Assembly: GCF_023487995.1 (NCBI RefSeq)
Contig: NZ_JAMFKN010000001.1
Span: 620,001 to 684,000, forward strand
Direction: 5' to 3'
DNA from: Thermohalobaculum sediminis
Lineage (GTDB): Bacteria; Pseudomonadota; Alphaproteobacteria; Rhodobacterales; Rhodobacteraceae
Length of the DNA stretch: 64,000 bases
A program made the position numbers and the translations under genes. Under the pieces are notes generated by a model. The model made no database searches. It worked only from the letters and a program-made list of their open reading frames with translations, and had not been told where the DNA came from. Within the stretch, counting starts at the first letter, position 1, and every line of letters begins with the position of its first letter. Positions 1 to 16,544 of this stretch are shown one piece after another.

Positions 1-2
1 CC

Positions 3-839
3 GAGGACCTCGCCAGGAAGCTCAAGCGCCTGGAGGGGCATCCCGGCGACAAGATCATCATCGTCGAGGGCATCTACTCGATGCTGGGCGACACTGCGCC
101 GCTCGCCGAGTTCGCCGCCGTCAAGCGCGAGGCGGGCGAAGGCGTCTACCTCATGGTCGACGAGGCCCATTCGCTGGGCGTGCTGGGCGAGTCGGGCCGC
201 GGCCAGTGCCAGGCCACGCATGTCGAGGACGACTGCGACTTCATCGTCGGCACCTTCTCGAAGAGCGTGGGCACGATCGGCGGTTATTGCGTCTCGAACC
301 TCGCGGGCTTCGACGCGATCCGCTCGTTCTGCCGGCCCTACATGTTCACCGCGTCGATGACGCCGGGCACCGTCTCGACCGCGCGAGCCGCCTTCCGGCG
401 AATGGCCGAGCGGCCCGAGCTGCGGGCGCGGCTCTGGTCGAACTGCTCGGCGCTCTATCGCGGCCTCGGCGATCTCGGCTTCGAGACCGGGCCCGAAGTG
501 AGCCCCGTCGTCGCCGTCAAGCTCCGGGCGCCCGAGATCGCGGTGGCGCTGTGGAACAGGCTGATCGACGAGGGCGTCTACACCAACATCGCGATCCCGC
601 CGGCCACCCCGAACGCGCTGTCGCTGCTGCGCGTGTCGGTCTCGGCCGCGCACACCGAGACGCAGATCGAGCGGGCGCTGAACATCTTCGCGTCGGTCGG
701 CGCCGAACTCGGCATCATCGAGCCCGGCGCAGGCCGCGCCGAGCGGTTCCACGTGATCACCGGAGGCGCCGCTGCCAAAGCAGGCGGGCGAACACGACCG
801 GCGCCGCAAGGGCCGGCCAGCGCCGCTGCCACGACCTGA
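3..839 (+). CDS. spt: Serine palmitoyltransferase-like PLP enzyme (5' truncated)
   Basis: The reading frame is open from base 3, so the N-terminus lies outside the window; 278 residues are visible. It belongs to the alpha-oxoamine synthase family (class I/II fold), whose members condense an amino acid with an acyl thioester. Visible are the PLP-ring Asp and His in VDEAHSLGVLG and the Schiff-base lysine in GTFSKSVGTIGG. TFSKS followed by GGYCVSN resembles serine palmitoyltransferase more than KBL or BioF. That enzyme condenses serine with palmitoyl thioester to 3-oxosphinganine, the first step of sphingolipid synthesis, in the cytosol. The lipid-kinase, phosphatidyltransferase and GNAT neighbours support this. 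The last 83 bp overlap the convergent gene on the other strand. BioF-type activity is the main alternative. Confidence 0.8.
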   Translation, partial: EDLARKLKRLEGHPGDKIIIVEGIYSMLGDTAPLAEFAAVKREAGEGVYLMVDEAHSLGVLGESGRGQCQATHVEDDCDFIVGTFSKSVGTIGGYCVSNLAGFDAIRSFCRPYMFTASMTPGTVSTARAAFRRMAERPELRARLWSNCSALYRGLGDLGFETGPEVSPVVAVKLRAPEIAVALWNRLIDEGVYTNIAIPPATPNALSLLRVSVSAAHTETQIERALNIFASVGAELGIIEPGAGRAERFHVITGGAAAKAGGRTRPAPQGPASAAATT

Positions 840-1668
840 GTTCGACGGGGCGGCCAGTGTGCCGCTCGACCTTCGAGAGCGCGTAGGCGAGGCCGCCGCG
901 GAATGTCGCGGCGGCCTTCGTCAGTCGCGCGGCATTGAGAAGCTTGCCGACCCTCCGCCGCCGCGCCCACATCCGGGCCGCCCGCGCGCGCGCCGCTGCA
1001 TCCGGCGCCGGGCTGGGCGCGATGAGCGCGGCGTGGAGCCCCCCGAAATGGGCCGGGTGCGCGTCGAGAATGGCGCCCGCGCGCCCCGCCCCCTCGACCC
1101 GCAACTCGGCGCCATAGGTCCGGGCATAGAGCGCGCCCCAGGCGCCGCGCCAGTCCGCCCCGTCGGGCGCGACATGCGCGGCCCACCAGGCCGCCGCCTC
1201 CGCCGCCGCCGCCAGCGCGTCGAGCACGGCCGCGCGCGCCGCGGCGTCGCTTGCATGGGCCAGCACCACCGGCTGCGAGAACCGCGCCCATAGAGTCGTG
1301 TCCCAGCTTTCCGCCCGCATCCGCGCGCGGAAGGCGTCGAGCCGCATCACCGCCACCTTGGCGTGAATCGCACCCGCCTGCCCCGCAAGCTCGACATGAT
1401 AGACGTTCGGCGGCATCAGCCGCCCCGCCAGCGCCGCAAGCCCCGGCCCGGACCAGTCGGCGTCGCGCGCCGTGAGGCAATAGAAGTCGAGCAGCCCTGC
1501 GGCCCCCACGTCGCGCAGCATGTTGCCGTAGAACAGGACCGCGAGCACGCCCGGCCGCGTGGCCAGATGCGCGGCCATCGCCGCAGCGTCGCCCGAAAGC
1601 GGCCGGTCCGCCGCCGCCTCGATCAGCGCGCCAACCTCCGGGCAGCGGGCCTGCCCGGCAGTGCTCAC
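757..1668 (-). CDS. Tam41-like nucleotidyltransferase
   Basis: A 303-residue protein with a GTG start whose GTGA overlaps the stop of the upstream hydroxylase gene, so the two are probably translationally coupled. Residues near 40-60 read FYGNMLRD followed by LLDFYCL, resembling the nucleotidyltransferase motif (YGS...DF) of the Tam41 phosphatidate cytidylyltransferase family. An N..HVEL stretch and a later ARFSQPVVL segment fit the same family. In mitochondria Tam41 makes CDP-diacylglycerol. Here, next to serine palmitoyltransferase and a lipid kinase, it may make a CDP-activated lipid or headgroup donor (inference). The 3' end overlaps the convergent gene by 83 bp. Assignment rests on short motifs only, and the glycine-serine motif is altered to GN. 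Confidence 0.6.
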   Translation of the reverse strand: MSTAGQARCPEVGALIEAAADRPLSGDAAAMAAHLATRPGVLAVLFYGNMLRDVGAAGLLDFYCLTARDADWSGPGLAALAGRLMPPNVYHVELAGQAGAIHAKVAVMRLDAFRARMRAESWDTTLWARFSQPVVLAHASDAAARAAVLDALAAAAEAAAWWAAHVAPDGADWRGAWGALYARTYGAELRVEGAGRAGAILDAHPAHFGGLHAALIAPSPAPDAAARARAARMWARRRRVGKLLNAARLTKAAATFRGGLAYALSKVERHTGRPVELRSWQRRWPALAAPVVFARLLWQRRLR

Positions 1669-2489
1669 TTGCGCTCGCTCATGCTTTCGAGGATCTGGTC
1701 GGCGCGCCGGGTCGCGGCCTCGAAGCGGTCCTCGAAATCCTCGATGTTCTTCTTCGGCTCCTTGTAGAAGGCCGTGAACTTCATCGCCCGGATGAAGAGC
1801 CCGGTCAGCAGCCGCGCCGGCCAGCGCATCGGCCGGTCGAAGTCGAACAGCAGGATCACCCGCTCCTCGTCGGTCTCGTTCCAGACCTCGTGTTCGTAGG
1901 TGTCGTCGAGCACGAAGACGCGGCCCGCCTCCCAGGCCCGGATCTCGTCGCCGACGCGGATGCGGCACTTCTCGCGCTCGGCGGGGATGATCAGGCCCAG
2001 ATGCGCGCGCAGGATGCCCTTGGTCACGCCCGTATGCGCCGGGATGTGGTAGCCGGGCGCGAGGATCGAGAACCACGCGGTCTGGATGTTCGGCACCCGG
2101 CTCAGGATCTCGGCCGTGACCGGCGCCTGCCGGCAATTGCGCTCGAGCCTCAGCCCGAAGCCATAGAGGATGAAGGTGCGCCAGTTCTTGGCGGTCGCGA
2201 TGCGGTATTGATCCGGCGAGATTTCCTGGAAGGCCGGGATTGCCTCGCGGAATTTGAGGATCTCGCGCGCCTCGGCCTCGATCTCGCGCCAGCGGGTCTC
2301 GAATTCGGCGAGGAAGGGGAAATGCCCGTTGCCGACGAACGGCGTCGTCGGCACGAGGCTCTGGCTCGCCTGGAAGGACGCCATCCAGCGCGTGAGCCGC
2401 TTGCCGAGGCGCTTGACGCGCTTGCGGATCGGGTGCTTCAGGGTGGCCGGTTTGGCCGCCGGCACGGGCGCGGGCTGGATCTGGTTCAT
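1665..2489 (-). CDS. Aspartyl/asparaginyl beta-hydroxylase family (LpxO-like) dioxygenase
   Basis: A 274-residue protein with a basic N-terminus and the AspH domain over roughly residues 90-240. Visible are the region with PAHTG and RAHLGLIIP and the later YEHEVWNET segment, which supply the iron-binding His residues and the 2-oxoglutarate-binding part of this Fe(II)/2-oxoglutarate dioxygenase family. Close relatives include LpxO, which 2-hydroxylates lipid A acyl chains. Inside a putative ceramide locus a 2-hydroxylation of the ceramide N-acyl chain or long-chain base is a reasonable inference but is not shown by the sequence. The stop overlaps the GTG of the following gene by 4 bp. ATG start at the beginning of the open frame. 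Confidence 0.8.
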   Translation of the reverse strand: MNQIQPAPVPAAKPATLKHPIRKRVKRLGKRLTRWMASFQASQSLVPTTPFVGNGHFPFLAEFETRWREIEAEAREILKFREAIPAFQEISPDQYRIATAKNWRTFILYGFGLRLERNCRQAPVTAEILSRVPNIQTAWFSILAPGYHIPAHTGVTKGILRAHLGLIIPAEREKCRIRVGDEIRAWEAGRVFVLDDTYEHEVWNETDEERVILLFDFDRPMRWPARLLTGLFIRAMKFTAFYKEPKKNIEDFEDRFEAATRRADQILESMSERK

Positions 2490-2534
2490 GGCGCCGTCAT
2501 AATCGCGGACGCCCGAAAAGTCGAGAAGCGGGGT

Positions 2535-3461
2535 TCAGGCGCTCGCGAACGTGAGAACCCCGCCCGCGGCGAGGCTCAGCCGGCCCTCCGGCCCCGCATC
2601 GAACCGCTCGCCATCGACCACGATATCGCCCGAAAGCCGTAGCTCGATCCGCGCCGCCCGGCCGGAACGGTAGCCCGCGCCGACCATCCAGCTGAGCGGC
2701 CGGCCCATGAGCGCGAAGGGCGCCGCAAGCGCCAGACGGCGGGCGGGCGCCGCCACGTCGAGCCAGCGCAGCGCGCCCTCTCCCCCGCCCCAGAACGGCT
2801 CGAGCCCCATCACCAGCGGCCCCGGCAAGGTGGTCACGAGCCCGGCGAAGCGGGCGCCCGCCGGCAGGGCCGTGCCATCGACCGCCAGCGCGGCCTCGAC
2901 GCCGCGCCGGATCGCCTGCGCCTCGCGGCCCATCAGCGCGCGGCGCAGCATCGAGGCGACCGCCAGCGCCACCTGCCCGCCACCGCGCGCCGCGATCTCC
3001 TCGGCCGCGAGCCGCGTACCGGTCTCGTAGACGCCCCAGCCGGCGATGAAGCCGCGCAATGTGGCCGCGCCCGCGCGCTCGATGTCGAGCACCGGCAGGT
3101 GCCGCTCGGCCAGCCGCCCGGCGCGCGCGCCCTCGACCAGCCGCGAAAGCCCCTCGGCCCCGCGCGCCGCGCCGGTCTTGCGCGCGATGAGGTTGGTATT
3201 GCCATGCGCCAGCACCGCAAGCCGCGGCGGCGTCTCGCCCCAGAGGCTGGGCAGGCGCGTCACCACCTCGCGCACCGTGCCGTCGCCGCCATCGAGGATC
3301 ATGAGGTCCACCCCGGCCGCCCGGAACTCGGCCAGCGCCGCGGACAGCGCGTCGAGATCGGCCGTCTCGCGCAGGATCACGCCCTGCGGCGGCGCGCCGG
3401 CCGTCACGCGGCGGTTGCGCGTGCTGGTGCGGTTGCGAATGAGGCCGATCGTCAGGCTCAC
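2535..3461 (-). CDS. Diacylglycerol/sphingosine/ceramide kinase-family protein
   Basis: A 308-residue member of the DAGK catalytic (LCB5/YegS) family. The N-terminus GLIRNRTSTRNRR is the usual nucleotide-binding start, and the family signature LDGGDGTVREVV (GGDGT) lies near residue 75. These cytosolic or membrane-associated enzymes phosphorylate the hydroxyl of diacylglycerol, sphingosine or ceramide. A Caulobacter ceramide kinase (CpgB) comes from this family, so the neighbourhood suggests ceramide phosphorylation; that is inference. I chose the GTG at 3461 because it forms a 4-bp GTGA overlap with the upstream stop, like the next gene pair, and gives a family-typical N-terminus. An ATG at 3476 would add five residues. 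Confidence 0.82.
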   Translation of the reverse strand: MSLTIGLIRNRTSTRNRRVTAGAPPQGVILRETADLDALSAALAEFRAAGVDLMILDGGDGTVREVVTRLPSLWGETPPRLAVLAHGNTNLIARKTGAARGAEGLSRLVEGARAGRLAERHLPVLDIERAGAATLRGFIAGWGVYETGTRLAAEEIAARGGGQVALAVASMLRRALMGREAQAIRRGVEAALAVDGTALPAGARFAGLVTTLPGPLVMGLEPFWGGGEGALRWLDVAAPARRLALAAPFALMGRPLSWMVGAGYRSGRAARIELRLSGDIVVDGERFDAGPEGRLSLAAGGVLTFASA

Positions 3462-4564
3462 GCGGCGGTCATCCATGACGCAAGCGGCCCCTTGCGCCGC
3501 GCGATCTCGGCCTGCGCCACGCGCACGAGGTGCACGGCAAAGCAGATCGCCGTCCACCATGCCACCGCGATCAGCCCCTCGCGCGGCGCGCCCGCCAGCG
3601 CAAAGCCCATGAGGATCAGCAGGTTCGGGTTGCGTCGCGCGGTGATCTCGCGGAACAGGCTGTCGAAGGGCCGCCAGATGTGCATCTCGATGCCATAGCG
3701 GGCGATGAACCAGCCTTCCTCAAGCCGCTGCGCGACATAGCCGCCGACGATCACGCCCATCACCAGCGCGAAATCCTCGACGGGCGTGCCTACGGCCGCG
3801 CAGCCCACTGCCCAGGCCCACCACCAGAAGGGCGGATGGATCAGGTCGATGCCATGGTCCAGCACGTCGCCCAGCTTCGAGGACGCGACCGTGACGCGCG
3901 CAAGCTTGCCGTCCACCGTATCAAGGAAGGTCATCGCCCAGGCCGCCACGAGGCCCGGCCCGAACTGCCCGATCCAGAACAGCCAGAAGGTCAGGATGAC
4001 CAGAGCGAGGCTCGCCCAGGTCACCTGGTTCGGCGTGATCCCCTTCAGCGCGCAGAACCGCGTGACCGCCAGCGCCGGGCGCGGCCAGACATGCTTGGTC
4101 ACGAGGTCGGTGACGCCCTTGTAGGATGCCCCGAACAGCGCGCGCTCCACCGCCACGCGATCAGAGGCCGGCATCACCAGCGGGTCGGCGCGCTTGCGCA
4201 GCTTCTGGTCGTAGCGCCCGGCCAGCCCCACGCCCGTCAGCGCCACCGCGCCCTCGGGCAGGTCCGTCGCCGCACCATGGCCCTCGACAAGCGGCAGCGC
4301 CCAGCCACGGCTTGCCCCGTCGATGCGCGCGCCGACCGCCCGGCCCTCGGCGTCCGTCAGCACGGTCCCCGGCGCGGCCGCCGCCAGCGCCGACAGCACG
4401 CTGCCGCCATAGACGTGATCGGCCCGCAGAACCACCCCGGCGTCCGTCGACGCGCCCGGCCTCAGCCCCGCGCGGGGCGCCTGCCGCGCCAGCCGCTCGC
4501 GCCCGCTCAGCCCGAAGGCCGCCTGCCCGTCGGGGCCCAGAAATGCCGCGATACCCTCTGCCAA
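3458..4564 (-). CDS. CDP-alcohol phosphatidyltransferase with N-terminal nucleotidyltransferase-like domain
   Basis: A 368-residue membrane protein. The C-terminal half holds the CDP-alcohol phosphatidyltransferase signature DG(x)2AR(x)n-G(x)3D(x)3D, seen as DTVDGKLARV followed by LGDVLDHGID, with several hydrophobic segments around it. The first ~140 residues (FGLSGRERLARQ, VVLRADHVY, TVLTDAEG) resemble a worn NTP-transferase domain, an arrangement known from fusions that make and use a CDP-polyol. The protein probably adds a phosphate-linked headgroup to a lipid at the inner membrane; acceptor and donor are unknown. The start is TTG at 4564, the only start I found after the upstream stop, so the N-terminus is uncertain. 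The gene heads the minus-strand block. Confidence 0.8.
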   Translation of the reverse strand: MAEGIAAFLGPDGQAAFGLSGRERLARQAPRAGLRPGASTDAGVVLRADHVYGGSVLSALAAAAPGTVLTDAEGRAVGARIDGASRGWALPLVEGHGAATDLPEGAVALTGVGLAGRYDQKLRKRADPLVMPASDRVAVERALFGASYKGVTDLVTKHVWPRPALAVTRFCALKGITPNQVTWASLALVILTFWLFWIGQFGPGLVAAWAMTFLDTVDGKLARVTVASSKLGDVLDHGIDLIHPPFWWWAWAVGCAAVGTPVEDFALVMGVIVGGYVAQRLEEGWFIARYGIEMHIWRPFDSLFREITARRNPNLLILMGFALAGAPREGLIAVAWWTAICFAVHLVRVAQAEIARRKGPLASWMTAA

Positions 4565-4590
4565 GGCTGCCGTTCCCTGCCCGTTCGTCC

Positions 4591-4619
4591 TTGCACGGCG
4601 CCGCTGGCGCGCCTATGGC
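4591..4619 (+). promoter_or_regulatory. Candidate sigma70-type promoter for the plus-strand lipid block
   Basis: TTGCAC (4591-4596), a 17-bp spacer and TATGGC (4614-4619) lie in the 127-bp divergent gap, about 73 bp before the metallophosphoesterase ATG. Five of six -35 positions and the TAT start of the -10 match the consensus. No promoter for the divergent minus-strand block is equally clear. Inspection only. Confidence 0.35.
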
Positions 4620-4691
4620 AGGCACGGGCGGGCGGCGCATGGACCGGCTCTTAAACCCTGCGCGCCGCCCGTGAAAGGCGGAGATTGTCCC

Positions 4692-5663
4692 ATGGACGGC
4701 GAAATCGTCCTCGCGCATCTGACCGACCCGCATCTCGACTTCGGCGCACCCCGTGGCCGCGAGTTCCTTTCGAAGCGGGCGCTGAGCTGGCTCAACTGGC
4801 GCCTCAAGCGCCGGGCGATCCAGCGTGCGGATCTCTGCGCGATGATCGTGGCCGACATCCATGCCCATGCCCCCGACCTTATCGCGATGACGGGCGACCT
4901 CGTGAACTTCGCCGTGGCCGAGGAGTTCCGCCGCGCCCGCGCCTGGCTCGACCGTCTCGGCCCGCCCGAGCGCGTGGCCGCGGTGCCCGGCAATCACGAG
5001 GCCATCGCGCCCGGCATGACGCGCGCGCTCCATGCCGCGTGGGGACCGTATCTGACCGGGCCCGACGGGCGGCCGGGCTACCCGTGGCGGCGCGACGTGG
5101 GTCCCGTCTCGATCGTCGGGGTCTCGACCGCGGCGGCCAGCCTGCCCTTCCTCGCCACAGGCGTCGTCGGCCCCGGCCAGCGCGAGCGGCTCGACGCCAT
5201 GCTCGGCGCCATCACGGCCGAGGGGCGGCTTGCGGTCATCCTGATCCACCACCCGCCCACGCCGATCACGAACCGCCGCAAGGGGCTTACCGACGGCGCG
5301 CTGGTCTGCGAGGTGATCGCGCGCCGCGGCGCGGGGCTGGTCCTGCACGGCCACACCCACAGGGCCGAGCTGTCCTGGATCGACGGCCCGGCGGGCCGCA
5401 TCCCGGTCCTCGGCGCCCCCTCCGCGAGCTGGGAGCCCGGCCCCGGCCGCGCCGGCGCCGCCTGGCGCCGCCTGCGCCTGAGGTCCGCCTTGGACGCCTG
5501 GCACCTGACGCTGGAGGAGCGCTGCGCCACCCCGGGCGGGATCGTCGCGCGCACCCCGCTTGCCTTCCGCCTGCCGCTGCCCGGTGCCGCGGCGCCGGCG
5601 CCCCTTGTGAGCGGCACCTCAGCGGCTAGAATGCCGCCCGACGCCGCGGGCGGGACAGCCTAG
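4692..5663 (+). CDS. Calcineurin-type metallophosphoesterase
   Basis: A 323-residue protein with all five metallophosphoesterase blocks in order: LTDPHLD (D-x-H) near residue 9, MTGDLVNF, PGNHE, IHHPP and LHGHTHR. No signal peptide is visible, so it is probably cytosolic. Family members hydrolyse phosphomonoesters or diesters, including UDP-diacylglucosamine (LpxH type) and cyclic nucleotides. Its place at the head of a plus-strand block with HIT, LptFG-type permease, GNAT and nucleotidyltransferase genes suggests a lipid or nucleotide-linked lipid substrate (inference). I chose ATG 4692 because AAAGGCGGAG sits 8-12 nt upstream; an in-frame GTG at 4671 is less convincing. Confidence 0.85.
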   Translation: MDGEIVLAHLTDPHLDFGAPRGREFLSKRALSWLNWRLKRRAIQRADLCAMIVADIHAHAPDLIAMTGDLVNFAVAEEFRRARAWLDRLGPPERVAAVPGNHEAIAPGMTRALHAAWGPYLTGPDGRPGYPWRRDVGPVSIVGVSTAAASLPFLATGVVGPGQRERLDAMLGAITAEGRLAVILIHHPPTPITNRRKGLTDGALVCEVIARRGAGLVLHGHTHRAELSWIDGPAGRIPVLGAPSASWEPGPGRAGAAWRRLRLRSALDAWHLTLEERCATPGGIVARTPLAFRLPLPGAAAPAPLVSGTSAARMPPDAAGGTA

Positions 5664-5704
5664 GGCGCCGCCGGCCACGCAGCCGATCGAGGCGGAGAGA
5701 CGAG

Positions 5705-6139
5705 ATGCCGAACCAGACCATCCGCAGCTTCGGCTGGCCCGATACCCACATCGCCGAAACCGATCACTGGATGGTGCTGCTGCGCCCGGCGCAGCCGACG
5801 CTGGGCGCGCTGGTGCTGGCGGCGAAGTCCGAGGCCACCGCCTGGGGCGACCTGCCGCCGCCCGCCCATGCCGATCTCGGACGCGCGGTGCCGGCGGTCG
5901 AGACCATGCTGCGCAGCGCCGTGGGCTACGAGAAGATCAACTATCTCATGCTGATGATGGTCGATCCTCACGTGCATTTTCACGTCCTGCCGCGCTATCC
6001 CGGCAGCCGAGAGGCCGAAGGGGTCGAGGTCGCCGACGCCGGCTGGCCCGGCCCGCCCGCACTGGGGCAGGCGGTCACGCCCGAGGCGGTGGAGCGCGAC
6101 CGGCTGGTGGCGCGGCTTGCCGCAGCCTGGCCCGGCTGA
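5705..6139 (+). CDS. HIT-family nucleotide hydrolase/transferase
   Basis: A 144-residue protein with the histidine triad as HVHFHVLPR near residue 95. The family cleaves or transfers nucleotidyl groups, for example AMP from dinucleoside polyphosphates or AMP-lysine. It is preceded by a GGCGGAGAGACG ribosome site and sits between the metallophosphoesterase and the permease pair. A role in recycling nucleotide by-products of headgroup transfer is conceivable, but the sequence does not show it. The substrate is unknown. Confidence 0.85.
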   Translation: MPNQTIRSFGWPDTHIAETDHWMVLLRPAQPTLGALVLAAKSEATAWGDLPPPAHADLGRAVPAVETMLRSAVGYEKINYLMLMMVDPHVHFHVLPRYPGSREAEGVEVADAGWPGPPALGQAVTPEAVERDRLVARLAAAWPG

Positions 6140-6148
6140 GGCGCCGGC

Positions 6149-7369
6149 TTGTCGCCCCTCTTCTCCCGCCGGCTGATCGACGGCTACCTGCTGAGGCTGA
6201 TGCTGCCGCGCATGGGGGCGGCGCTGGTGGTGACGCTGGTCGCGCTGCTGCTCGAGCGGATGCTGCGGCTGTTCGACCTCGTGACCGGACAGGGCGCGAC
6301 CATCGGCCCGGCTCTGGGCATGGCGATCAGCCTGGTGCCGCATTACATCGGCCTCGCGCTGCCGGCGGCCTTCTGCATCGGCGTGCTGACCTGCCTCGCC
6401 ACGCTGAGCCAACAGAACGAGGTCGATGCGCTCGAGGCCGCGGGATGGTCGCTGCGCCGGATCGGCGTGCCCTTCATCCTGTGCGCGCTGGTGCTGATGG
6501 TGCTGAGCGTGGCGCTGTTCGGCGTGATCCAGCCCTACAGCCGCTATGCCTATTACGAGATCCGCCACTCGGTCCTGACCTCGGCCTGGAACGGACGGAT
6601 CGAGCAGGGCGTGTTCGTCGAGGCGGGCGCGGATCTCACGCTGTCGGCCGCGGCGATCGACCCCACGGGGCGGGTGCTCGACCGCGTCTTCGCGGTGCAG
6701 AAGGACCTCAAGGGCGAGGTCGTGCTGACGGCGCGGCGCGGCATCGTCGTGCCCGAGGACGATGGCAAGACCGTGCGCCTGCTGCTGCGCGAAGGCGTGG
6801 CGATGACGGCCGACGGCAGCCGGCTCGACTTCGACGAGCTGACGCTCGAACGCCGTTTTCCCGCCGACGCCAATCCCTTCCGCCCGCGCGGCGATTCCGA
6901 GCGCGAGCTGACGCTGGCCGAGCTCTACACCCTCTCGCGCGGCGAAGGCGTGCTGCCGCCCGAGCCGCGCTATGCGGCCGAACTGCACGCCCGGCTGATC
7001 CGCGCCGTGTCGCTGATCGGGGTGGCGCTGCTCGCGGTGCCGCTGGGCGTCGCGCGGAAACGCTCGCCGGTCTGGCCACGCATCGCCATCGCGATCGGCG
7101 TGCTGGCTGCCTATGACAACCTCATCAAGATGGTCGAGAGCATGGCGGACTTGGGCCGCGTCGATCCGGTCCTGGGGCTGTGGGGACTGTGCGGGGCGTT
7201 CCTCGCGCTCACCGGCCTGATCTTCGTGCTGACGCCCGGACAGGGCGCACTCTCGCCGGTGCGCAGCCTGCTGCGGATGATCGACCTTGCGACCGGCGAC
7301 CTGCGGCGGATGCTGGGGCGCATCGGGCGGCGCGGGGGAGACGGCGACAAGGGCGGGGCGCCGGGATGA
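6149..7369 (+). CDS. LptF/LptG-family (YjgP/YjgQ) permease, first copy
   Basis: A 406-residue inner-membrane protein of the YjgP/YjgQ family. Two N-terminal hydrophobic segments (from LRLMLPRMGAALVVTLVALLL), a third near FILCALVLMVL, a large soluble middle part (the periplasmic beta-jellyroll of LptF/G) and three C-terminal segments match the family layout, and the length is somewhat above the usual 355-370. LptFG with LptB extracts lipopolysaccharide and hands it to LptC. Here the pair sits in a sphingolipid-type locus, which points to a dedicated second exporter (inference). The start is TTG at 6149. The stop overlaps the next ATG by 4 bp. Whether this is the genome's only LptF cannot be judged from the window. 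Confidence 0.85.
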   Translation: MSPLFSRRLIDGYLLRLMLPRMGAALVVTLVALLLERMLRLFDLVTGQGATIGPALGMAISLVPHYIGLALPAAFCIGVLTCLATLSQQNEVDALEAAGWSLRRIGVPFILCALVLMVLSVALFGVIQPYSRYAYYEIRHSVLTSAWNGRIEQGVFVEAGADLTLSAAAIDPTGRVLDRVFAVQKDLKGEVVLTARRGIVVPEDDGKTVRLLLREGVAMTADGSRLDFDELTLERRFPADANPFRPRGDSERELTLAELYTLSRGEGVLPPEPRYAAELHARLIRAVSLIGVALLAVPLGVARKRSPVWPRIAIAIGVLAAYDNLIKMVESMADLGRVDPVLGLWGLCGAFLALTGLIFVLTPGQGALSPVRSLLRMIDLATGDLRRMLGRIGRRGGDGDKGGAPG

Positions 7370-8412
7370 GGCTCGGGCTCTACCTCTCGCGGCAGGTCGG
7401 GCTCGCGGTCGCGGGGACGGGCGGGGTCCTGATGGTGCTCGCGCTGGGGCTCGACCTGCTGGACACGGCGACGGACCTGCTCGACCTCGGGGGCTTCGCC
7501 GCGCTCGCGCGCTACTCGGCGCTGCGGCTGCCGCTGATCGGCGTCACTGTGCTCCCGATCGCGGTGCTGACCGGCGGCGCGATCGCCTTCTTCGCGCTCG
7601 CCGCCCGCAGCGAACTGGTGGTGATGCGCGCGGCCGGCCTCAACACGCTGCGCCTGTTGCTGATGCTCGCGCCACTCTCGGTGCTGATCGGGATCGGCTA
7701 CGGTTTCCTGTCCGACGCCATTGCCGCGCGCGCCGAGCGGGCGCTGGTGCGCAGCTTCCCCGAACTCGTCGGCAACCCCACCGCCCGCCTCGTCTGGGCC
7801 CGCGCGCCGGACGAGATCGTGCGCATCGGCTCGGCCGAGGCCTCGGGCGGCGTGCTGTCCGACGTGTCGATCTTTGCGCTCGACGAGGGAGGCCTGATCC
7901 TCAGCCGCACCGATGCCGGGGGCGCCGTCTATCGCCGCGACGGCTGGGAGCTCACCGGCACGGTCACGGTCACCGGCATCGGTGCCGGGCACAGCGAGGC
8001 CGCCGGGCGGGTCTGGACCACCCGGCTCAGGCCCGCCGATGTCCGCACGCTGGCCGCGCGGCCCGAATTCGTCGGCGCCGACCGCGCGGCGCAGGTGCTG
8101 GCGGGCATCGCCTATGGCGCGCGCGGGGCGGCCTTCTACCAGACCCGCCTCTGGCGCGGCTGGATCGCCGCGGCGGTGCCCACGATCATGCTGCTGTTCG
8201 CGGCGGCGGCGGGCTTTGGCCTCACGCGCTCGGGCGGGCGGGGCTGGCTGGCCGCCGGAGGGGTCGCCACCGGCTTCCTGTTCATCGCGACCGACGGATT
8301 CCTGATCTCGCTGGGGGCGAGCGGGGCGATGGACCCGTTGCTCGCGGTGGTCAGCGCGCCCGCGCTGTTCGCGGGGCTGGGGCTCTGGTCCATCATCCTG
8401 CTCGAGGAATAG
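7366..8412 (+). CDS. LptF/LptG-family permease, second copy
   Basis: A 348-residue partner of the preceding permease, beginning at an ATGA overlap with its stop, so the two are likely co-translated and form a heterodimer. Hydrophobic segments lie at about residues 10-35, 55-80 and 95-120, then a soluble ~150-residue block, then three C-terminal membrane segments (from RGWIAAAVPTIMLL). This is the LptG layout. Neither an LptB-type ATPase nor LptC is encoded nearby, so the pair would borrow the housekeeping ATPase or use one encoded elsewhere. Confident for the family, inferential for the substrate. Confidence 0.85.
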   Translation: MRLGLYLSRQVGLAVAGTGGVLMVLALGLDLLDTATDLLDLGGFAALARYSALRLPLIGVTVLPIAVLTGGAIAFFALAARSELVVMRAAGLNTLRLLLMLAPLSVLIGIGYGFLSDAIAARAERALVRSFPELVGNPTARLVWARAPDEIVRIGSAEASGGVLSDVSIFALDEGGLILSRTDAGGAVYRRDGWELTGTVTVTGIGAGHSEAAGRVWTTRLRPADVRTLAARPEFVGADRAAQVLAGIAYGARGAAFYQTRLWRGWIAAAVPTIMLLFAAAAGFGLTRSGGRGWLAAGGVATGFLFIATDGFLISLGASGAMDPLLAVVSAPALFAGLGLWSIILLEE

Positions 8413-8479
8413 CGGCCTTGGCGCGGTGCGCGGCGGTCTGCTATCGCTGCGCAACACCGCAGCGAGAGCCCTCCCGGAC

Positions 8480-9616
8480 ATGCAAGCCGAGATCGAGATC
8501 CGCCCCGTCGCGACCCGCGCCGATCGCGAGGCGTTCATCCGCCTGCCGGGGCGGCTGATGGCGGGCGATCCGAACTGGGTCGAGCCCCTGCTCATCGAGC
8601 GCCGCCAGCACATCGACCCCGCGCGCAACCCCTTCTTCCGCCACGCCGAGGTGGCCCTGTGGCTGGCCCGCGAGGACGGCCGGCCGGTGGGCCGCATCAG
8701 CGCACAGCTCGACCGCCTCGCGCCCGCGGTCGAGGGGCGACGCGTCGGCTTCTGGGGGATGCCGGCGGCCCGCGACGCGGCGGTGCTGGCGCGCCTTCTC
8801 GCCACGGCCGAGGACTGGCTGCAGGCCCGCGGCGCGAGCCTCGGGCGCGGCCCCTTCTCGCTCTCGGTCAACGAGACCTCGGGCCTGCTGATCGAGGGCT
8901 TCGACACGCCGCCCTATCTGATGATGGCACATGACCCCGCCTGGATGGGCGCCGCGGTCGAGGCCTGCGGCTGGGCCAAGGGCCGCGACCTCGTGGCCTA
9001 CGAGATGGACGTCTCGCGCGGGCTGCCCGACCGGCCCCGCCGGATCGCCGAGCGCGCGCTGGCCGAAGGCGTTCGCCTGCGCCCGCTGGACCGGCGCCGC
9101 TTCGCCGACGAGATCCGCATGGTCACCGCCATCTTCAATGACGCCTGGGCCGGCAACTGGGGCTTCGTGCCGCTGACAGAGGCCGAGATCGACGCCATGG
9201 CAGCCGAGTTGAAGCCGATCCTGGACCCGGAACTCGTCCGCATCGCCGAGATCGGCGGGCAGGCCGCGGGCTTCATCGTGCTGCTGCCGAACATCAACGA
9301 GGCGATCCGCGACCTCGGTGGCCGGCTCCTCCCCTTCGGCTGGGCGAAGCTCCTGTGGCGGCTGAAGGTGCGCGGCCTGCGAACCGGCCGGGTGCCGCTG
9401 ATGGGCATCACCCGCGCAGCGGCGGGCACGGTGCTGGGCAAGGCGCTGCCGCTCCTCCTGATCTATTCGCTCGAGGAACGGGCGCGGGCACGTGGCATCG
9501 ACCGGCTGGAACTCTCGTGGCTGCTGGAGGACAACTGGCCGGTGCGCCGGCTGATCGAGTCGCTGGAAGGACGCCTGACCAAGACCTGGCGCGTCTACGA
9601 GAAGGTGCTGGCATGA
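8480..9616 (+). CDS. GNAT-fold N-acyltransferase, candidate bacterial ceramide synthase
   Basis: A 378-residue protein of the long GNAT-like family often auto-named dATP pyrophosphohydrolase or YghO-like. The N-terminal part (residues 1-180) contains PNWVEPL and the family-typical FSVNETSG-like block seen as LSVNETSGLL. The C-terminal GNAT part contains AAGFIVLLPN and an EERARARGIDRLELSW acyl-CoA-loop region. Bacterial ceramide synthase (bCerS), which N-acylates the sphingoid base, is a GNAT-family enzyme in Caulobacter. Given the serine palmitoyltransferase at the left edge, this is the best bCerS candidate in the window (inference). ATG 8480 gives a family-like start. The stop overlaps the next ATG by 4 bp. 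Confidence 0.7.
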   Translation: MQAEIEIRPVATRADREAFIRLPGRLMAGDPNWVEPLLIERRQHIDPARNPFFRHAEVALWLAREDGRPVGRISAQLDRLAPAVEGRRVGFWGMPAARDAAVLARLLATAEDWLQARGASLGRGPFSLSVNETSGLLIEGFDTPPYLMMAHDPAWMGAAVEACGWAKGRDLVAYEMDVSRGLPDRPRRIAERALAEGVRLRPLDRRRFADEIRMVTAIFNDAWAGNWGFVPLTEAEIDAMAAELKPILDPELVRIAEIGGQAAGFIVLLPNINEAIRDLGGRLLPFGWAKLLWRLKVRGLRTGRVPLMGITRAAAGTVLGKALPLLLIYSLEERARARGIDRLELSWLLEDNWPVRRLIESLEGRLTKTWRVYEKVLA

Positions 9617-10365
9617 GCTGGACCGCGCTTATCCTCGCGGGCTCGCGCGGGCCCGCCGACCCGGTGGCGCAGGCGGCGGGTGTCAGTCACAAGGCCTTCG
9701 CCGAGGTCGCCGGCCGCAGCATGATCGGGCGCGTGGCCGAGGCCCTGGCCGCCGCCGGGATAGGCCGCATCCTCGTCTCGATCGAGCCGGGCGCGCCCGC
9801 TCTCCCCGCGGGGCTCGAACGGCTCGACGCCGCGCCCTCACCCGCGCGCTCGGTCGGGGCGGCGCTGGCGGCGGCGCCGACGCCGCTTCTGGTCACCACC
9901 GCCGACCACCCGCTGCTCACGTCCGCGATGGTCGCCGACTTCCTCGCCGGTGCCGGGGCGGCGGGTGCCGATGTCTGCGCCGGCGTCGCGGTCCGCGCCG
10001 TGGTCGAGGCCGCGGGCAATCCCGCGCGCCGCACCTACCTGCGCTTTCGCGACGCCGAGGTCAGCGGCTGCAACCTGTTCGCGCTGAACACGCCCCGCGC
10101 CGCGCAGGCGGTGGCGTTCTGGAAGCGGCTGGAAGCCGAACGCAAGCGGCCATGGAAGATGGCGCTCGCCATCGGCCCGGCGACGCTTGCCGCCTATGCG
10201 GCGGGGTGGCTCACGATGGCGGGGGCGGCGCGGGCGCTGGGTCGGGCGGCGGGCTGCACCGCCGCGCTGGTCACGCTCGACCACGCCGAGGCGGCGCATG
10301 ACGTCGACAAGCCCGCCGACCTCGCCTTCGCCGAGGCGCGCCTGCGCGCCCACGCGGGCGGCTAG
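9613..10365 (+). CDS. MobA-like NTP transferase domain protein
   Basis: A 250-residue protein with the glycosyltransferase-A-like NTP-transferase fold: LILAGSRG at the N-terminus in place of LAGGxGxRxG, HKAFAEVAGRSMIGRV as the substrate-binding turn, TTADHPLL holding the metal-binding Asp, and a C-terminal HDVDKPADLAF typical of this group. Such enzymes transfer a nucleotidyl group to a phosphorylated sugar, polyol or cofactor. It is the last gene of the plus-strand lipid block (ATGA overlap with the GNAT gene), so a CDP-headgroup donor for the phosphatidyltransferase is a plausible product. Its TAG stop lies within CTAG, which also supplies the stop of the convergent gene. Confidence 0.75.
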   Translation: MSWTALILAGSRGPADPVAQAAGVSHKAFAEVAGRSMIGRVAEALAAAGIGRILVSIEPGAPALPAGLERLDAAPSPARSVGAALAAAPTPLLVTTADHPLLTSAMVADFLAGAGAAGADVCAGVAVRAVVEAAGNPARRTYLRFRDAEVSGCNLFALNTPRAAQAVAFWKRLEAERKRPWKMALAIGPATLAAYAAGWLTMAGAARALGRAAGCTAALVTLDHAEAAHDVDKPADLAFAEARLRAHAGG

Positions 10366-10832
10366 ATGCCGCTGCCGTCGTCCGGCTCGCAGCCGGGCAG
10401 GCTGCCCTCGGGCCGCGTCCAGGTCTCGGTCTTGCCCAGCAGCTTGATGCCCAGATAGGCGCGCACCTTCAGCGTGCCGTCGCCGTTCTCGTGCAGTTCG
10501 AGGTCGAAGCTCTTGCCGTCCTTGGGGTAGTAGAAGCTGCCCTCCTCCCATCCCCTGCCGTTCCGCTGGAGGCCGCTGATGACCTCGATGCCGCACCACG
10601 GCCGGTCGCGCAGCGCGGGGTCGGGGTTGTGCTCGTCGCGCTTCAGCGTGCCCTCGCTCCAGCGCGGCTTTTCGAGCCACACAATCTTGCCGCAGAGCTG
10701 CGCGCCGCAGCGGTAGAGCTCGACGCCGACCTGCTTCTTCCCGGTCAGCCAGACGCCCTCGACGCCCGCCGCGGGCGCGGTCCCGGCGCCGAGTGCGAGG
10801 GCAAGGGTGGCGATGGCGAAAAGGCGGGTCAT
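10362..10832 (-). CDS. DUF2147 secreted protein
   Basis: A 156-residue protein with a Sec signal peptide (MTRLFAIATLALALGAGTAPAA). The mature part starts GVEGVWLTGKKQ and continues with LYRCGAQLCGKIVWLE, the characteristic start and cysteine pair of DUF2147, a small beta-barrel domain of unknown function found in periplasmic proteins. Later HNPDPALRDRPWCGIEVI and WEEGSFYYPKDGK fit the same family. A GGGAGACAGGA ribosome site precedes ATG 10832. Divergently placed from the 5'-nucleotidase gene. No function can be assigned. Confidence 0.85.
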   Translation of the reverse strand: MTRLFAIATLALALGAGTAPAAGVEGVWLTGKKQVGVELYRCGAQLCGKIVWLEKPRWSEGTLKRDEHNPDPALRDRPWCGIEVISGLQRNGRGWEEGSFYYPKDGKSFDLELHENGDGTLKVRAYLGIKLLGKTETWTRPEGSLPGCEPDDGSGI

Positions 10833-10997
10833 GGTGTCCTGTCTCCCGTAGTGGCGCGGCCGGCGCACGGCGCAAAGCTGAGGGCGCTGCGGCTGCGGTT
10901 CAAGGGATGCAACGGTGCGGCGCCACGCCTCCGTCGCCGCTTGACGGCACCGCGGGGCCTTGCGACGCTCGGCCATCGTCATCCCGGAGGGGCCGCC

Positions 10998-12590
10998 ATG
11001 GCACGAACCGCACTCGCCGCCGCCGTCGCGCTGGCCGGCCTCGCCACGCCCGCGTTTGCCGACTACACGCTCACGATCCTGCACACCAATGACTTCCACA
11101 GCCGGATCGAGCCGATCAACAAGTACGACTCGGCCTGCGGCGAGAAGGACGCGGCCGAGGGAGCGTGTTTTGGCGGCTCGGCGCGGCTCGTGACCGCGAT
11201 CCGCGAGCGGCGCGCGGCGCTTCCCAACTCGATCCTCGTGGACGGCGGCGACCAGTTCCAGGGCTCGCTGTTCTACACCACCTACAAGGGCCGCGCGGCA
11301 GCCGAGCTGATGAACGCGCTGGGCTACGAGGCGATGACCGTGGGCAACCACGAGTTCGACGACGGCCCCGAGGTGCTGCGCGGCTTCATGGCGGCGGTCG
11401 AGTTCCCTGTCCTGCTGGCCAATGCCGATGTCGGTGCCGAGCCCGCGCTGGCCGATGTCCTGCGCCCCTCGGTGGTGATCGAGAAGGCGGGCCAGCGGAT
11501 TGGTCTGATCGGCCTCACGCCGGTCGAGACCGCCGAGCTCGCCTCGCCCGGCCCGAATGTCCGCTTCACCGACCCGATCCCGGCGCTCGAGGCCGAGGTG
11601 GCGCGCCTCACCGCCGACGGCATCGACAAGATCGTCGTGCTGAGCCATTCCGGCTACCGCCGCGACCTCGAGATCGCGGCCGCCGTGCCCGGTGTCGACG
11701 TGATCGTGGGCGGCCATTCCCACACGCTCCTGTCGAACGTCAGCGACAAGGCCGAGGGCCCCTACCCCACCTGGGTGGACGGCCCCGGCGGAGCCCGCGT
11801 GCCGATCGTTCAGGCCTATGCCTATGGCAAGTTTCTGGGTGAACTCACGGTCACCTGGGACGATGCGGGCCGCGTCACCGCCGCGTCGGGCGAGCCGATC
11901 CTGATGGACGGGCAAATCGCCGAGGACGGGCCGCTCAAGGCGCGCATCGCCGAGCTTGCCACGGCCTTCGACGAGATCCGCAACGAGGTCGTGGCCGAGG
12001 CCGCGGCGCCGATCGACGGCGAGCGCACCACCTGCCGCGCGGCCGAGTGCCAGATGGGCAATCTCGTGGCCGACGCGATGCTCGACCGGGTGAAGGGCCA
12101 GGGCATCCGCATCGCCATCGCCAATGGTGGCGGCCTGCGCGCCTCGATCGACGCGGGGCCCGTGACGATGGGCGAGATCCTGACCGTCCTGCCCTTCCAG
12201 AACACGCTTGCGACCTTCGCGCTCACCGGCGCCGACGTGATCGCCGCGCTCGAGAACGGCGTGAGCCAGGCCGAGCAGGGCGCGGGCCGCTTCCCTCAGG
12301 TTGCGGGCATCCGCTACACGTGGCGGCGATCGGCGCCGCCGGGTGCGCGCATCGTCGGCGTCGAGATCCGCGACGGCGACGGCTGGGTCCCGCTCGACCC
12401 TGCCGCGATCTATGGCGTCGTCTCGAACGACTATGTGCGGCGGGGCGGCGACGGCTATGCGGTCTTCGCCGAGCGTGCGATCGACGCCTACGATTTCGGC
12501 CCAGCGCTCGAGCAGGTGCTGGCCGACTACATGATCGCGGGCGGTGCCTACACGCCGGTGATCGAGGGGCGGATCACCGCGGTCGACTGA
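10998..12590 (+). CDS. Periplasmic 5'-nucleotidase / UshA-family metallophosphatase
   Basis: A 530-residue exported enzyme. Signal peptide about residues 1-20, ending in TPAFA. The N-terminal metallophosphatase domain has ILHTNDFHSRIEP (D-x-H), VDGGDQFQGS, TVGNHEFDDG, LSHSGYRRD and VGGHSHT. The C-terminal 5'-nucleotidase domain has NLVADAML, IANGGGLRASI and LTVLPFQNTL. These proteins release phosphate and nucleosides from periplasmic nucleotides, giving phosphate or purine salvage. GGAGGGG lies 6-12 nt before the ATG. It is followed by 422 bp without a confident gene. Substrate range cannot be read from the sequence. Confidence 0.93.
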   Translation: MARTALAAAVALAGLATPAFADYTLTILHTNDFHSRIEPINKYDSACGEKDAAEGACFGGSARLVTAIRERRAALPNSILVDGGDQFQGSLFYTTYKGRAAAELMNALGYEAMTVGNHEFDDGPEVLRGFMAAVEFPVLLANADVGAEPALADVLRPSVVIEKAGQRIGLIGLTPVETAELASPGPNVRFTDPIPALEAEVARLTADGIDKIVVLSHSGYRRDLEIAAAVPGVDVIVGGHSHTLLSNVSDKAEGPYPTWVDGPGGARVPIVQAYAYGKFLGELTVTWDDAGRVTAASGEPILMDGQIAEDGPLKARIAELATAFDEIRNEVVAEAAAPIDGERTTCRAAECQMGNLVADAMLDRVKGQGIRIAIANGGGLRASIDAGPVTMGEILTVLPFQNTLATFALTGADVIAALENGVSQAEQGAGRFPQVAGIRYTWRRSAPPGARIVGVEIRDGDGWVPLDPAAIYGVVSNDYVRRGGDGYAVFAERAIDAYDFGPALEQVLADYMIAGGAYTPVIEGRITAVD

Positions 12591-13325: not shown

Positions 13326-14465
13326 CTACCCGCCGCCGCGCCGCCAGGGCTCGAGCAGCGCCTCCGCCGCGCGGCGGCCCTCGTCGGTCAGGCTCAGCGC
13401 CTCGCCCTCGCGCCGCACCAAGCCCGCGGCGACGCCTTCGCCCAGCACCGCGCGCGCCCGCGCCTCGCTCCAGTCGAGATGGAGCCGCAGCGCCGCAGCG
13501 ACGTTCTCCTCGCGCCGCTCAGCGCTGTCCTCATGTGTGGCCAGATGCACGACCAGCGCCCGGGTCGCGTTCTGGCGCGCCGCCCTCGCCCGGCGCATGA
13601 GCCCCGCCACCACCCCGTGGCGCGGCCCCGCCAGCACCGCGAGGCCCAGGCAGATCCCGGTCATCACCGCCATCATGCCCGAGATCGACACGTCCCAGCG
13701 CATCGCCAGCCAGTAGCCCGCGACGCTTGCGACGCCCGCGATGGTAATCCCGATCGGCACCATCCGCTCCAGCCGGTCGGTGAGCAGGTAGGCGGCCGCG
13801 GGCGGCATCACCACGAACGCGATGAACAGGATCGCCCCCACCGCGTCGAAGGCCGCCACCGCCGTGCCCGAGGTGAGGAACAGGAGCACGTAGAACAGCG
13901 CCCGCGGCGCCAGGCCCATCGCATGCGCCAGCACCGGGTCGAAGGTCGCGACCTTCAGCTCCTTCCAAAGCGCCACCACGAACACCGCGTTCACCGCCGC
14001 GACCGCCGCCATCCAGACCAGCGCCCGCGGCGCCGTCAGCCCCGCCACCTCGACCGTGTCAAGCCAGACGAAGCCGATCTCGCCCAACAGCACCGTGTGG
14101 GTGTCGATATGCACGTCCGAGGCATAGAGGTTCAGCAGCAAGACCCCCGCCGCGAACAGCGCCGGGAATACCAGCCCGATGGCCGCGTCGTTCTTCACCC
14201 GGCCGGTGGCGGCGACCAGCTCGACCAGCACCACCGTGAGCACCCCCGCGAGCGCCGCGCCCAGGATCTGCACCGGCCCCGAGATCGCGCCCGTCAGCAT
14301 CCAGACCGCGACGATGCCGAACACGATCGAATGGCTGATCGCGTCCGACAGCATCGCCGCGCGCCGAAGGATCAGAAACGGCCCCAGCAGAGCCGCGGCG
14401 GCGCCGACCAGGAACCCCGTCGCCATGATCGAGAAGGCCGGATCGTCCAGCAGCGCCTGCATCAT
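13326..14465 (-). CDS. mntD: Manganese/iron ABC transporter permease with C-terminal winged-helix-like tail
   Basis: A 379-residue permease of the ABC-3 (ZnuB/MntC/SitCD) family. About eight hydrophobic segments cover residues 1-285. Visible family features include AMLSDAISHSIVFGIV, LKVATFDPVLAHAMGL and FDAVGAILFIAFVVMPPAAA. The last ~90 residues (from RRARAARQNATRALVVHL to LSLTDEGRRAAEALL) are soluble and end like a winged-helix wing, as in metal permeases fused to DtxR-like tails. Start overlaps the upstream permease stop (ATGA). The assignment to manganese comes from the divergent mntR gene. Zinc or iron remain possible. Confidence 0.88.
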   Translation of the reverse strand: MMQALLDDPAFSIMATGFLVGAAAALLGPFLILRRAAMLSDAISHSIVFGIVAVWMLTGAISGPVQILGAALAGVLTVVLVELVAATGRVKNDAAIGLVFPALFAAGVLLLNLYASDVHIDTHTVLLGEIGFVWLDTVEVAGLTAPRALVWMAAVAAVNAVFVVALWKELKVATFDPVLAHAMGLAPRALFYVLLFLTSGTAVAAFDAVGAILFIAFVVMPPAAAYLLTDRLERMVPIGITIAGVASVAGYWLAMRWDVSISGMMAVMTGICLGLAVLAGPRHGVVAGLMRRARAARQNATRALVVHLATHEDSAERREENVAAALRLHLDWSEARARAVLGEGVAAGLVRREGEALSLTDEGRRAAEALLEPWRRGGG

Positions 14466-15739: not shown

Positions 15740-15743
15740 CGCC

Positions 15744-16544
15744 TCATCCAGCCGCCGCGGGGCCCTCGGCCGGCGTCTCGATCAGCGCGATCTGCCCGCC
15801 ATAGGCGCGGCGCAGGTTGGCGGCGGTGTGCACCTCGGCTACCGGGCCCTGCGCGATGACGCGCACGTTCAGGATCACCATCCAGTCGTAGTAGCGCCGC
15901 ACGGTCTGCAGGTCGTGATGCACCACGATCACCGTCCGCCCCCGGTCGCGCAGCCCCTGCAACAGCGCCACGATCGCGCGTTCGGTGGTGGCATCGACGC
16001 CGGCCATCGGCTCGTCCAGCAGGTAGAGGTCGGCCTCCTGCACCAGCGCGCGGGCCAGGAACACGCGCTGCTGCTGCCCGCCCGACAGCTGGCTGATCTG
16101 CCGCTCCGCCAGGTCGTCTATCCCCATCTGCCGCAGGGCCGCCATCGCCCGCTCGCGCGTGTCGCGCCCCGGCCGGCGCAACCAGCCCAGATGGCCGTAG
16201 CGCCCCATCATCACGACGTCGAGCGCCGTGGTCGGAAAGTCCCAATCGACCGAGCTGCGCTGCGGCACGTAGGCGACCCGCCGACGGGTCCGCGCATAGG
16301 GCTGGCCGAAGACCCGCACATGCCCCGCGGTCTTGGGCACGAGCTCGAGCACCGCCTTGATCAGGGTCGATTTGCCCGCTCCGTTCGGCCCCACGATCGC
16401 GGCCATCACTCCGGGCGGCACGTCGAGGTCGATGTCCCACAGCACCGGGCGGGCGTGGTAGCTGACCGTCAGGTCCTCGACATGCAAGGCAAGCCCCGGC
16501 TCGTGCAGCCGCGCGTCGCTCCCGCTCTCGCGCCGGAAGAACAT
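15744..16544 (-). CDS. mntB: Manganese/iron ABC transporter ATP-binding protein
   Basis: A 266-residue ABC ATPase with Walker A GPNGAGKSTL (about residue 52), Q-loop YVPQRSSVDWDFP, signature LSGGQQQRV, Walker B LYLLDEP and switch His in VHHDL. The Q-loop wording QRSSVDWDFP is typical of the metal (Mn/Zn/Fe chelate-uptake type) importer ATPases. It lies between the binding-protein gene (8 bp upstream) and the permease genes (4 bp downstream) in a four-gene operon mntABCD. ATG 16544 is the start of the open frame. Confidence 0.92.
   Translation of the reverse strand: MFFRRESGSDARLHEPGLALHVEDLTVSYHARPVLWDIDLDVPPGVMAAIVGPNGAGKSTLIKAVLELVPKTAGHVRVFGQPYARTRRRVAYVPQRSSVDWDFPTTALDVVMMGRYGHLGWLRRPGRDTRERAMAALRQMGIDDLAERQISQLSGGQQQRVFLARALVQEADLYLLDEPMAGVDATTERAIVALLQGLRDRGRTVIVVHHDLQTVRRYYDWMVILNVRVIAQGPVAEVHTAANLRRAYGGQIALIETPAEGPAAAG

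Follow-up and report, generated by a model that had tools for sequence, protein, structure and literature searches.

A Caulobacter-type phosphosphingolipid locus in Thermohalobaculum sediminis contains a probable ceramide hydroxylase of the AspH fold

The window analyzed here is a 64,000-nucleotide stretch of Thermohalobaculum sediminis DNA (assembly GCF_023487995.1, contig NZ_JAMFKN010000001.1, positions 620001-684000). Judged by its genes, its left end and ~4.1 kb of adjoining DNA make up a real and complete phosphosphingolipid locus of the kind that directs ceramide phosphoglycerate (CPG/CPG2) synthesis in Caulobacter crescentus. Such a locus is known in kind but rare in this family; what is probably new is an accessory hydroxylase encoded within it. 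This enzyme is probably a dedicated ceramide hydroxylase of a type new for bacteria, and we consider the full reading of the locus, ceramide hydroxylation included, to be likely. The host genome (G000, 4.31 Mb) belongs to Rhodobacteraceae/Paracoccaceae. Coordinates refer to the window unless they carry the prefix L007, which denotes a longer stretch of the same contig that reaches left of window base 1.

Every gene that the initial annotation named at 3-10365 is present, with profile matches for the serine palmitoyltransferase, the GNAT protein, the DAGK-family kinase, the CDP-alcohol transferase, the AspH-type protein, the phosphoesterase and LptF/G. Its two nucleotidyltransferases and HIT protein fare unevenly. 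The MobA-like enzyme is clear (9.6e-12), the one at 757-1668 is recognized by its structure model only, and the HIT-like protein scores 20.2 bits against PF01230, slightly below the Pfam cut-off of 21.5. The genes of the locus that lie in the window are the following.

1..839, plus strand: spt, serine palmitoyltransferase (SPT), 3' part (NF047599, PDB 2x8u)
757..1668, minus strand: cpgC (CC_1161) counterpart, Tam41-like nucleotidyltransferase, GTG start (AlphaFold model and Foldseek)
1665..2489, minus strand: aspH, AspH-fold Fe(II)/2-oxoglutarate hydroxylase, proposed ceramide hydroxylase (PF05118, 1.5e-51)
2535..3476, minus strand: cpgB (CC_1160) counterpart, DAGK-family ceramide kinase (PF00781, DAGK_cat, 1.1e-8; position as in relatives)
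3458..4564, minus strand: cpgA (CC_1159) counterpart, CDP-alcohol phosphatidyltransferase with an additional region at its N terminus (PF01066, CDP-OH_P_transf, 2e-10; motif DTVDGKLARVTVASSKLGDVLD at residue 215)
4671..5663, plus strand: CC_1158 counterpart, metallophosphoesterase, start GTG 4671 or ATG 4692 (PF00149, Metallophos, 1e-11)
5705..6139, plus strand: HIT-like protein in the CC_1157 position (PF01230, sub-threshold; found again in relatives' clusters)
6149..7369, plus strand: lptF2 (PF03739, LptF_LptG, 2.3e-57)
7366..8412, plus strand: lptG2 (PF03739, LptF_LptG, 1e-41)
8480..9616, plus strand: bCerS (CC_1154) counterpart, GNAT ceramide synthase (PF00583, 1.1e-5)
9613..10365, plus strand: CC_1153 counterpart, MobA/CofC-like nucleotidyltransferase (PF12804, NTP_transf_3, 9.6e-12)

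The minus-strand genes run cpgA-cpgB-aspH-cpgC, and the hydroxylase gene belongs to the operon of the kinase and cpgC. The first two overlap by 19 bases if cpgB begins at its chosen, putative ATG (3476), cpgB and aspH are 45 bases apart, and aspH and cpgC share a 4-base overlap that also occurs in Thermohalobaculum xanthum. The cpgC gene converges with spt and overlaps it by 83 bases; whole, spt encodes 437 amino acids (L007:15526-16839), and its last 278 codons fall inside the window. On the plus strand the order is phosphoesterase-HIT-lptF2-lptG2-bCerS-CofC-like, with 4-base overlaps at lptF2/lptG2 and at bCerS/CofC-like. Left of window base 1 come first aasR and cerR, then a CpgD-like NTP transferase gene, acpR and spt, with acpR 49 bases and the end of aasR 2.4 kb before spt. 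The acyl carrier protein, its synthetase and the reductase that the initial annotation proposed to seek there are all found (acpR, aasR, cerR), and AasR scores 708 bits against a fatty acyl-AMP ligase model with a cut-off of 600. The bCerS counterpart has no relative in the PDB at E <= 1 and is found again in relatives' clusters at 36-87% identity. The same genes co-occur in relatives at 22-92% identity, which rules out a chance grouping. Farther left, L007:5833-10036 holds a flippase-like gene (PF01943) and two uncharacterized genes, 69-82% conserved in G001, a genome of the same genus.

Excerpts of PMC11324152 describe Caulobacter CC_1152-CC_1168 as aasR, cerR, acpR, spt, CC_1161, CC_1160 (ceramide kinase), CC_1159 (CDP-alcohol transferase), CC_1158 (phosphoesterase), CC_1157, LptF2/G2, CerS, CC_1153, CC_1152, LptC2 and a flippase. 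Thirteen counterparts (aasR, cerR, acpR, spt, cpgC, cpgB, cpgA, CC_1158, CC_1157, lptF2, lptG2, bCerS and CC_1153) are present here in the published order, and both loci have a Wzx-like flippase gene nearby. Unlike the Caulobacter locus, this one has an AspH-type hydroxylase gene between cpgC and cpgB and a CpgD-like gene between cerR and acpR. By family and order, all eleven CPG/CPG2 genes (five ceramide and six headgroup) have counterparts in the region. The initial annotation held that this assembly is richer than that of Caulobacter; since genes for a ceramide kinase, a CDP-alcohol transferase, several nucleotidyltransferases, a phosphoesterase and LptC2/F2/G2 are described there as well (excerpts of PMC11324152 and PMC12275187), this is true of the hydroxylase alone. 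G471, from another family, has the genes from aasR to the CofC-like enzyme in the same order and a flippase gene; neither a CpgD-like gene nor a hydroxylase turned up in its 35 kb of fetched DNA. G375 has a rearranged version of the locus in the part fetched.

The identity, order and co-occurrence of the genes, their conserved catalytic residues and the modeled CpgC fold are direct observations, and from these genes alone we infer every reaction in this organism, including the formation of CDP-ceramide and the hydroxylase's substrate and target carbon. AasR would load a fatty acid onto AcpR, and SPT would condense it with serine. N-acylation by bCerS and reduction by CerR would then give dihydroceramide, which the DAGK-family kinase CpgB would convert to ceramide-1-phosphate. 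CpgC, of the Tam41 fold, would probably use CTP to make CDP-ceramide, and CpgD would make CDP-glycerate. The CDP-alcohol transferase CpgA, aided by the CofC-like enzyme and the phosphoesterase, would produce CPG2, and the second LptF/LptG pair would export this product towards the outer membrane. The synthesis genes and the CpgB and CpgD activities have been demonstrated by others in Caulobacter, according to the excerpts available. CPG/CPG2 fits the anionic, CDP-derived headgroup that had been anticipated for this lipid.

The CDP-ceramide step is suggested by the fold of CpgC. Pfam and NCBIfam searches with the cpgC counterpart give no match, its profile has a weak nucleotidyltransferase match in the PDB (E = 0.014), and one of 19 CpgC members searched against Pfam is matched (Polbeta, 0.0049). 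An AlphaFold model built from 18 sequences (pLDDT 88.6, pTM 0.88) has as its four best Foldseek matches in the PDB structures of the CDP-diacylglycerol synthase Tam41 (E = 5.5e-5 to 3.9e-4), with TM scores of 0.45-0.52 over 243-298 aligned columns. CpgC therefore resembles this mitochondrial enzyme in fold over most of the chain and differs from it in sequence (12-15% identity) and in its presumed substrate, ceramide-1-phosphate. Excerpts of PMC12275187 call the CpgC mechanism unidentified, and CC_1161 has an InterPro CDP-diacylglycerol synthase domain according to excerpts of PMC11324152. The Tam41 fold match agrees with this last hint, and CDP-ceramide thereby becomes the most probable intermediate. 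On the strength of the model, CpgC is predicted to be a CTP:ceramide-1-phosphate cytidylyltransferase.

The glycerate part of the headgroup is indicated by the CpgD-like NTP transferase. Nine residues (G10, R14, N87, N106, G107, M142, K156, S166 and W197) match in order, with shifts of -2 to -5, the CpgD active-site residues Gly12, Arg16, Asn90, Asn110, Gly111, Met147, Lys161, Ser170 and Trp201 reported in excerpts of PMC13228409; the match was made by eye from the published positions, without the CpgD sequence. Phosphoinositol, phosphoglycerol or some other group derived from a CDP-polyol could instead form the headgroup. The CpgA-like protein has weak matches to archaetidylinositol and phosphatidylinositol-phosphate synthase models (43.9 and 40.5 bits, cut-offs 180 and 170), and a sub-threshold PF04464-like gene lies just upstream (L007:10027-11193). 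Set against the nine CpgD active-site residues in the upstream NTP transferase and the counterparts of all eleven CPG2 genes, however, such a headgroup seems unlikely. The PF04464-like gene is divergent from aasR and resembles CDP-glycerol glycerophosphotransferases (18.1 bits, cut-off 22.1). Its homologues adjoin aasR in G471 and G375 and the hydroxylase gene in L081, L082, L097 and L108, and it might take part in headgroup transfer.

The hydroxylase matches the PDB AspH structure 5apa (E = 1.5e-25) with its HTG and DDxxEHEVW stretches aligned. Counted column by column over 99 homologues, H163, H200, R210, D195 and D196 are kept in all 99 and H152 in 98; a first motif pattern, which matched 78 of the 99 rows, was judged too strict and was replaced by these counts. 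The conserved residues presumably bind the metal and 2-oxoglutarate, and together with the PF05118 domain they place the protein among the AspH-fold Fe(II)/2-oxoglutarate hydroxylases. It has this domain and the conserved histidines and arginine in common with OlsC and LpxO, which hydroxylate lipid acyl chains. It differs from them in its co-occurrence with SPT and in its scores, which are far below the curated cut-offs of both families (221.6 bits against 450 for OlsC NF052565 and 111.6 bits against 500 for LpxO NF033391). When the matched stretches of ten homologues were scored separately against the OlsC model, the second copy of G296 passed with 455 bits, G527 reached 400 and the eight others 188-254. 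G296 has both a true OlsC (455 bits) and a separate hydroxylase paralogue (232 bits).

The distribution of the hydroxylase follows that of SPT. We surveyed a family sample of 198 genomes (one per genus of the collection's family f1, G066 included) and a class sample of 385 genomes, with thresholds of E <= 1e-110 for SPT, E <= 1e-45 for a hydroxylase homologue and E <= 1e-65 for a close homologue. In the family sample the hydroxylase occurs in exactly the four genomes that have SPT (Fisher p = 1.6e-8; 8e-7 without the window genome). In the class sample it occurs in 12 genomes, ten of which are SPT-positive (p = 2e-8; 1.4e-7 without the window genome). All eight class-sample genomes with a close homologue are SPT-positive (p = 3.4e-8), under a limit that was set after the list was seen.

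In gene neighborhoods, G000, G001, G003, G066, G113 and the named loci L075 and L139 share the order kinase-hydroxylase-cpgC. In loci of the Roseovarius, Hellea and Robiginitomaculum type, the hydroxylase is mostly found 0.8-3.8 kb past the start of a CpgD-like, TagF-like or flippase gene, and in other families it adjoins spt (G402) or lies near the cluster (G405, G324). Among the best 80 of 519 confirmed named loci, with flanks fetched up to 10 kb on each side and cluster-gene matches at E <= 1e-6, one or more of 14 cluster genes are present in 55; of the seven most specific genes, 51 loci have at least one and 45 have two or more. A second hydroxylase copy in G003, which belongs to the window's genus, is 66% identical to that of the window (L050:10845-11630), and no sphingolipid gene was found near it except a weak 34% cerR match. 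The hydroxylase also occurs in 10 records of a plasmid search, all below 60% identity.

Several observations tell against a CPG-type locus with its own ceramide hydroxylase. The Fisher tests are uncorrected for kinship. Two of the 12 homologue-bearing class genomes lack SPT (G341 and G527, with distant homologues, that of G527 being OlsC-like at 400 bits). No cluster gene occurs in the fetched DNA of 25 of the best 80 named loci; many of these are on short contigs, but L070, L074, L137 and L138 had long flanks. Two of the 55 positive loci (L119 and L133) are counted solely for a 25-26% aasR match. The orthology with Caulobacter is drawn from gene order, family and published description, and the 35 kb fetched from G113 yielded no counterpart of cpgA, HIT, CofC-like, CpgD-like, aasR or cerR. 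The kinship of CpgC with Tam41 comes from Foldseek alone (TM 0.45-0.52, 12-15% identity), and the window protein has N in place of the S in the YGS motif of CpgC. Finally, 40 of the 48 SPT-positive class genomes have no close hydroxylase homologue, which indicates that the hydroxylase is an accessory step.

If the hydroxylase acts on ceramide, then it would most likely add the hydroxyl group at C2 of the N-acyl chain. This assignment is made by analogy with OlsC and LpxO and because the N-acyl chain is the natural target in the locus; hydroxylation of the sphingoid base would also be compatible. Caulobacter N-acyl hydroxylation is credited in excerpts of PMC11324152 to the DesA-type enzyme CC_0202, encoded elsewhere in the genome, whose mutant is colistin-resistant. 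The AspH-type enzyme would stand in for this unrelated protein. A literature search found no title that ties a hydroxylase of the AspH/LpxO/OlsC type to bacterial sphingolipids.

An ordinary OlsC- or LpxO-like enzyme that acts on ornithine lipid or lipid A and is in the locus by happenstance is improbable. These are the nearest named families, a PF13444 (OlsB-type) match occurs in 14 of 15 genomes tested, the window genome among them, and lpxC is present in the window genome as well. The scores are nevertheless only about half (OlsC) and a quarter (LpxO) of the curated cut-offs, and none of the 194 family genomes without SPT has a homologue, yet 191 of them have lpxC. G113 combines hydroxylase and SPT without lpxC, G402 (92% complete) combines them without a PF13444 match, and G296 has a true OlsC apart from its hydroxylase. 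On the evidence of the last two genomes, ornithine lipid was dropped as the obvious substrate.

The enzyme at the left edge of the window is a true SPT by sequence criteria, as the initial annotation had supposed. It scores 617.9 bits against NF047599 (cut-off 500), the sole cut-off passed among the models matched, and it is below those of bioF (304, cut-off 426) and glycine C-acetyltransferase (272, cut-off 460). The ten top sequences in a PDB search are all SPT (best 2x8u, E = 1.6e-127), and 2-amino-3-ketobutyrate CoA ligases reach 9.1e-56 at best. Its fold family, of which the window genome has three more distant members, also includes BioF, KBL and cysteate-using sulfonolipid enzymes, but such an identity is extremely improbable given these rankings, a match to the cysteate-C-fatty acyltransferase 28eh at only 8.4e-50, and the adjoining acpR, aasR, cerR, bCerS and kinase genes. 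The BioF and KBL identities were dropped on the curated cut-offs and the PDB ranking.

SPT is present in 4 of the 198 family-sample genomes and 48 of the 385 class-sample genomes. The idea that such a locus is unexpected in Rhodobacterales holds in part: SPT is rare in the family at large, four of the five genomes of the window's genus have it, and Roseovarius and Maritimibacter also carry sphingolipid loci. A plasmid search found SPT in 23 records, with identity below 60% among the 15 matches listed. In an SPT tree made by a quick method from 47 rows, which represent 35 of the 54 SPT-positive genomes and 12 of the 14 named loci that were tried, the family sequences form two separate groups. 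The first contains the window's genus, G066 and G113, and the second, placed near Henriciella and Robiginitomaculum, contains G143, Roseovarius and Maritimibacter. The tree forces three changes of family label; one of these is due to the absence of a family label on the named rows L075 and L139 next to G113. The most economical reading, among others that are possible, is that SPT reached the family twice. Both family groups carry the hydroxylase, whose presence (E <= 1e-65) requires four changes over the 35 genomes; G402, G427, G296 and G395 were included because they bear it, and G281 (two partial matches, 45-49%) and G346 (a distant match) were scored as hydroxylase-negative.

Of the two LptF/G pairs in the window genome, one belongs to the locus and the other lies within ~1-3 kb of the lptD match on contig 38. 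There are four LptF_LptG matches each in G000, G001 and G066 and two each in the SPT-less genomes G004, G006 and G009. The pair in the locus is thus a second one beside the canonical pair, which fits service to the sphingolipid. In the closed Rhodobacteraceae genome G113 (L015, L016), where lpxC, lptF/G and lptD were the lipopolysaccharide genes checked, the sole LptF/G pair sits in the sphingolipid locus, lptD is distant and no lpxC match was found, with the SPT locus and the hydroxylase present. G113 is therefore a candidate for replacement of lipopolysaccharide by a sphingolipid, with lpxC as the one indicator of lipid A loss. Four of the 198 family genomes have no lpxC match, and only G113 among them is closed; there is also no lpxC match in G002, an SPT-positive draft of 98% completeness. 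A window genome devoid of lipopolysaccharide was dropped as an idea, lpxC being present, as was a family-wide link between lpxC loss and SPT (lpxC missing from one of four genomes with SPT and from three of 194 without it; p = 0.08, not significant).

We give an even chance to a broader proposal in two parts, taken jointly: that this unnamed AspH-fold subfamily is the dedicated ceramide hydroxylase of many sphingolipid-making Alphaproteobacteria (Rhodobacterales, Hyphomonadaceae/Robiginitomaculaceae and Hyphomicrobiales), acquired on more than one occasion together with SPT, and that the G113 sphingolipid, carried by LptF2/G2 and LptD, replaced lipopolysaccharide. Whether the Lpt machinery can work for sphingolipids alone is a question for which G113 provides a natural test. 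The locus also supplies a candidate enzyme for the hydroxylation of ceramides in bacteria; in Caulobacter, loss of this hydroxylation gives colistin resistance (excerpts of PMC11324152). The fold of CpgC supplies the CDP-ceramide hypothesis.

These loci indicate phosphosphingolipids in a family where chemotaxonomy had not expected them. Excerpts of PMC7179689 (2020) state that their presence "appears to be restricted to Sphingomonadales". The Caulobacter work already goes past this restriction, as do the dihydroceramides measured in Rhodothalassium salexigens, for which excerpts of PMC11762602 also report an spt gene together with "a sphingolipid/fatty acid hydroxylase" whose family is not stated. 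No title found in a literature search deals with the sphingolipids of Rhodobacteraceae or Roseovarius.

Two neighbors to the right of the locus were named by reading their translations. The frame at 10491-12590 resembles a secreted phosphoesterase of the 5'-nucleotidase type, and the minus-strand genes at 13326-16544 appear to encode a metal-type ABC transporter with two permeases and one ATPase.

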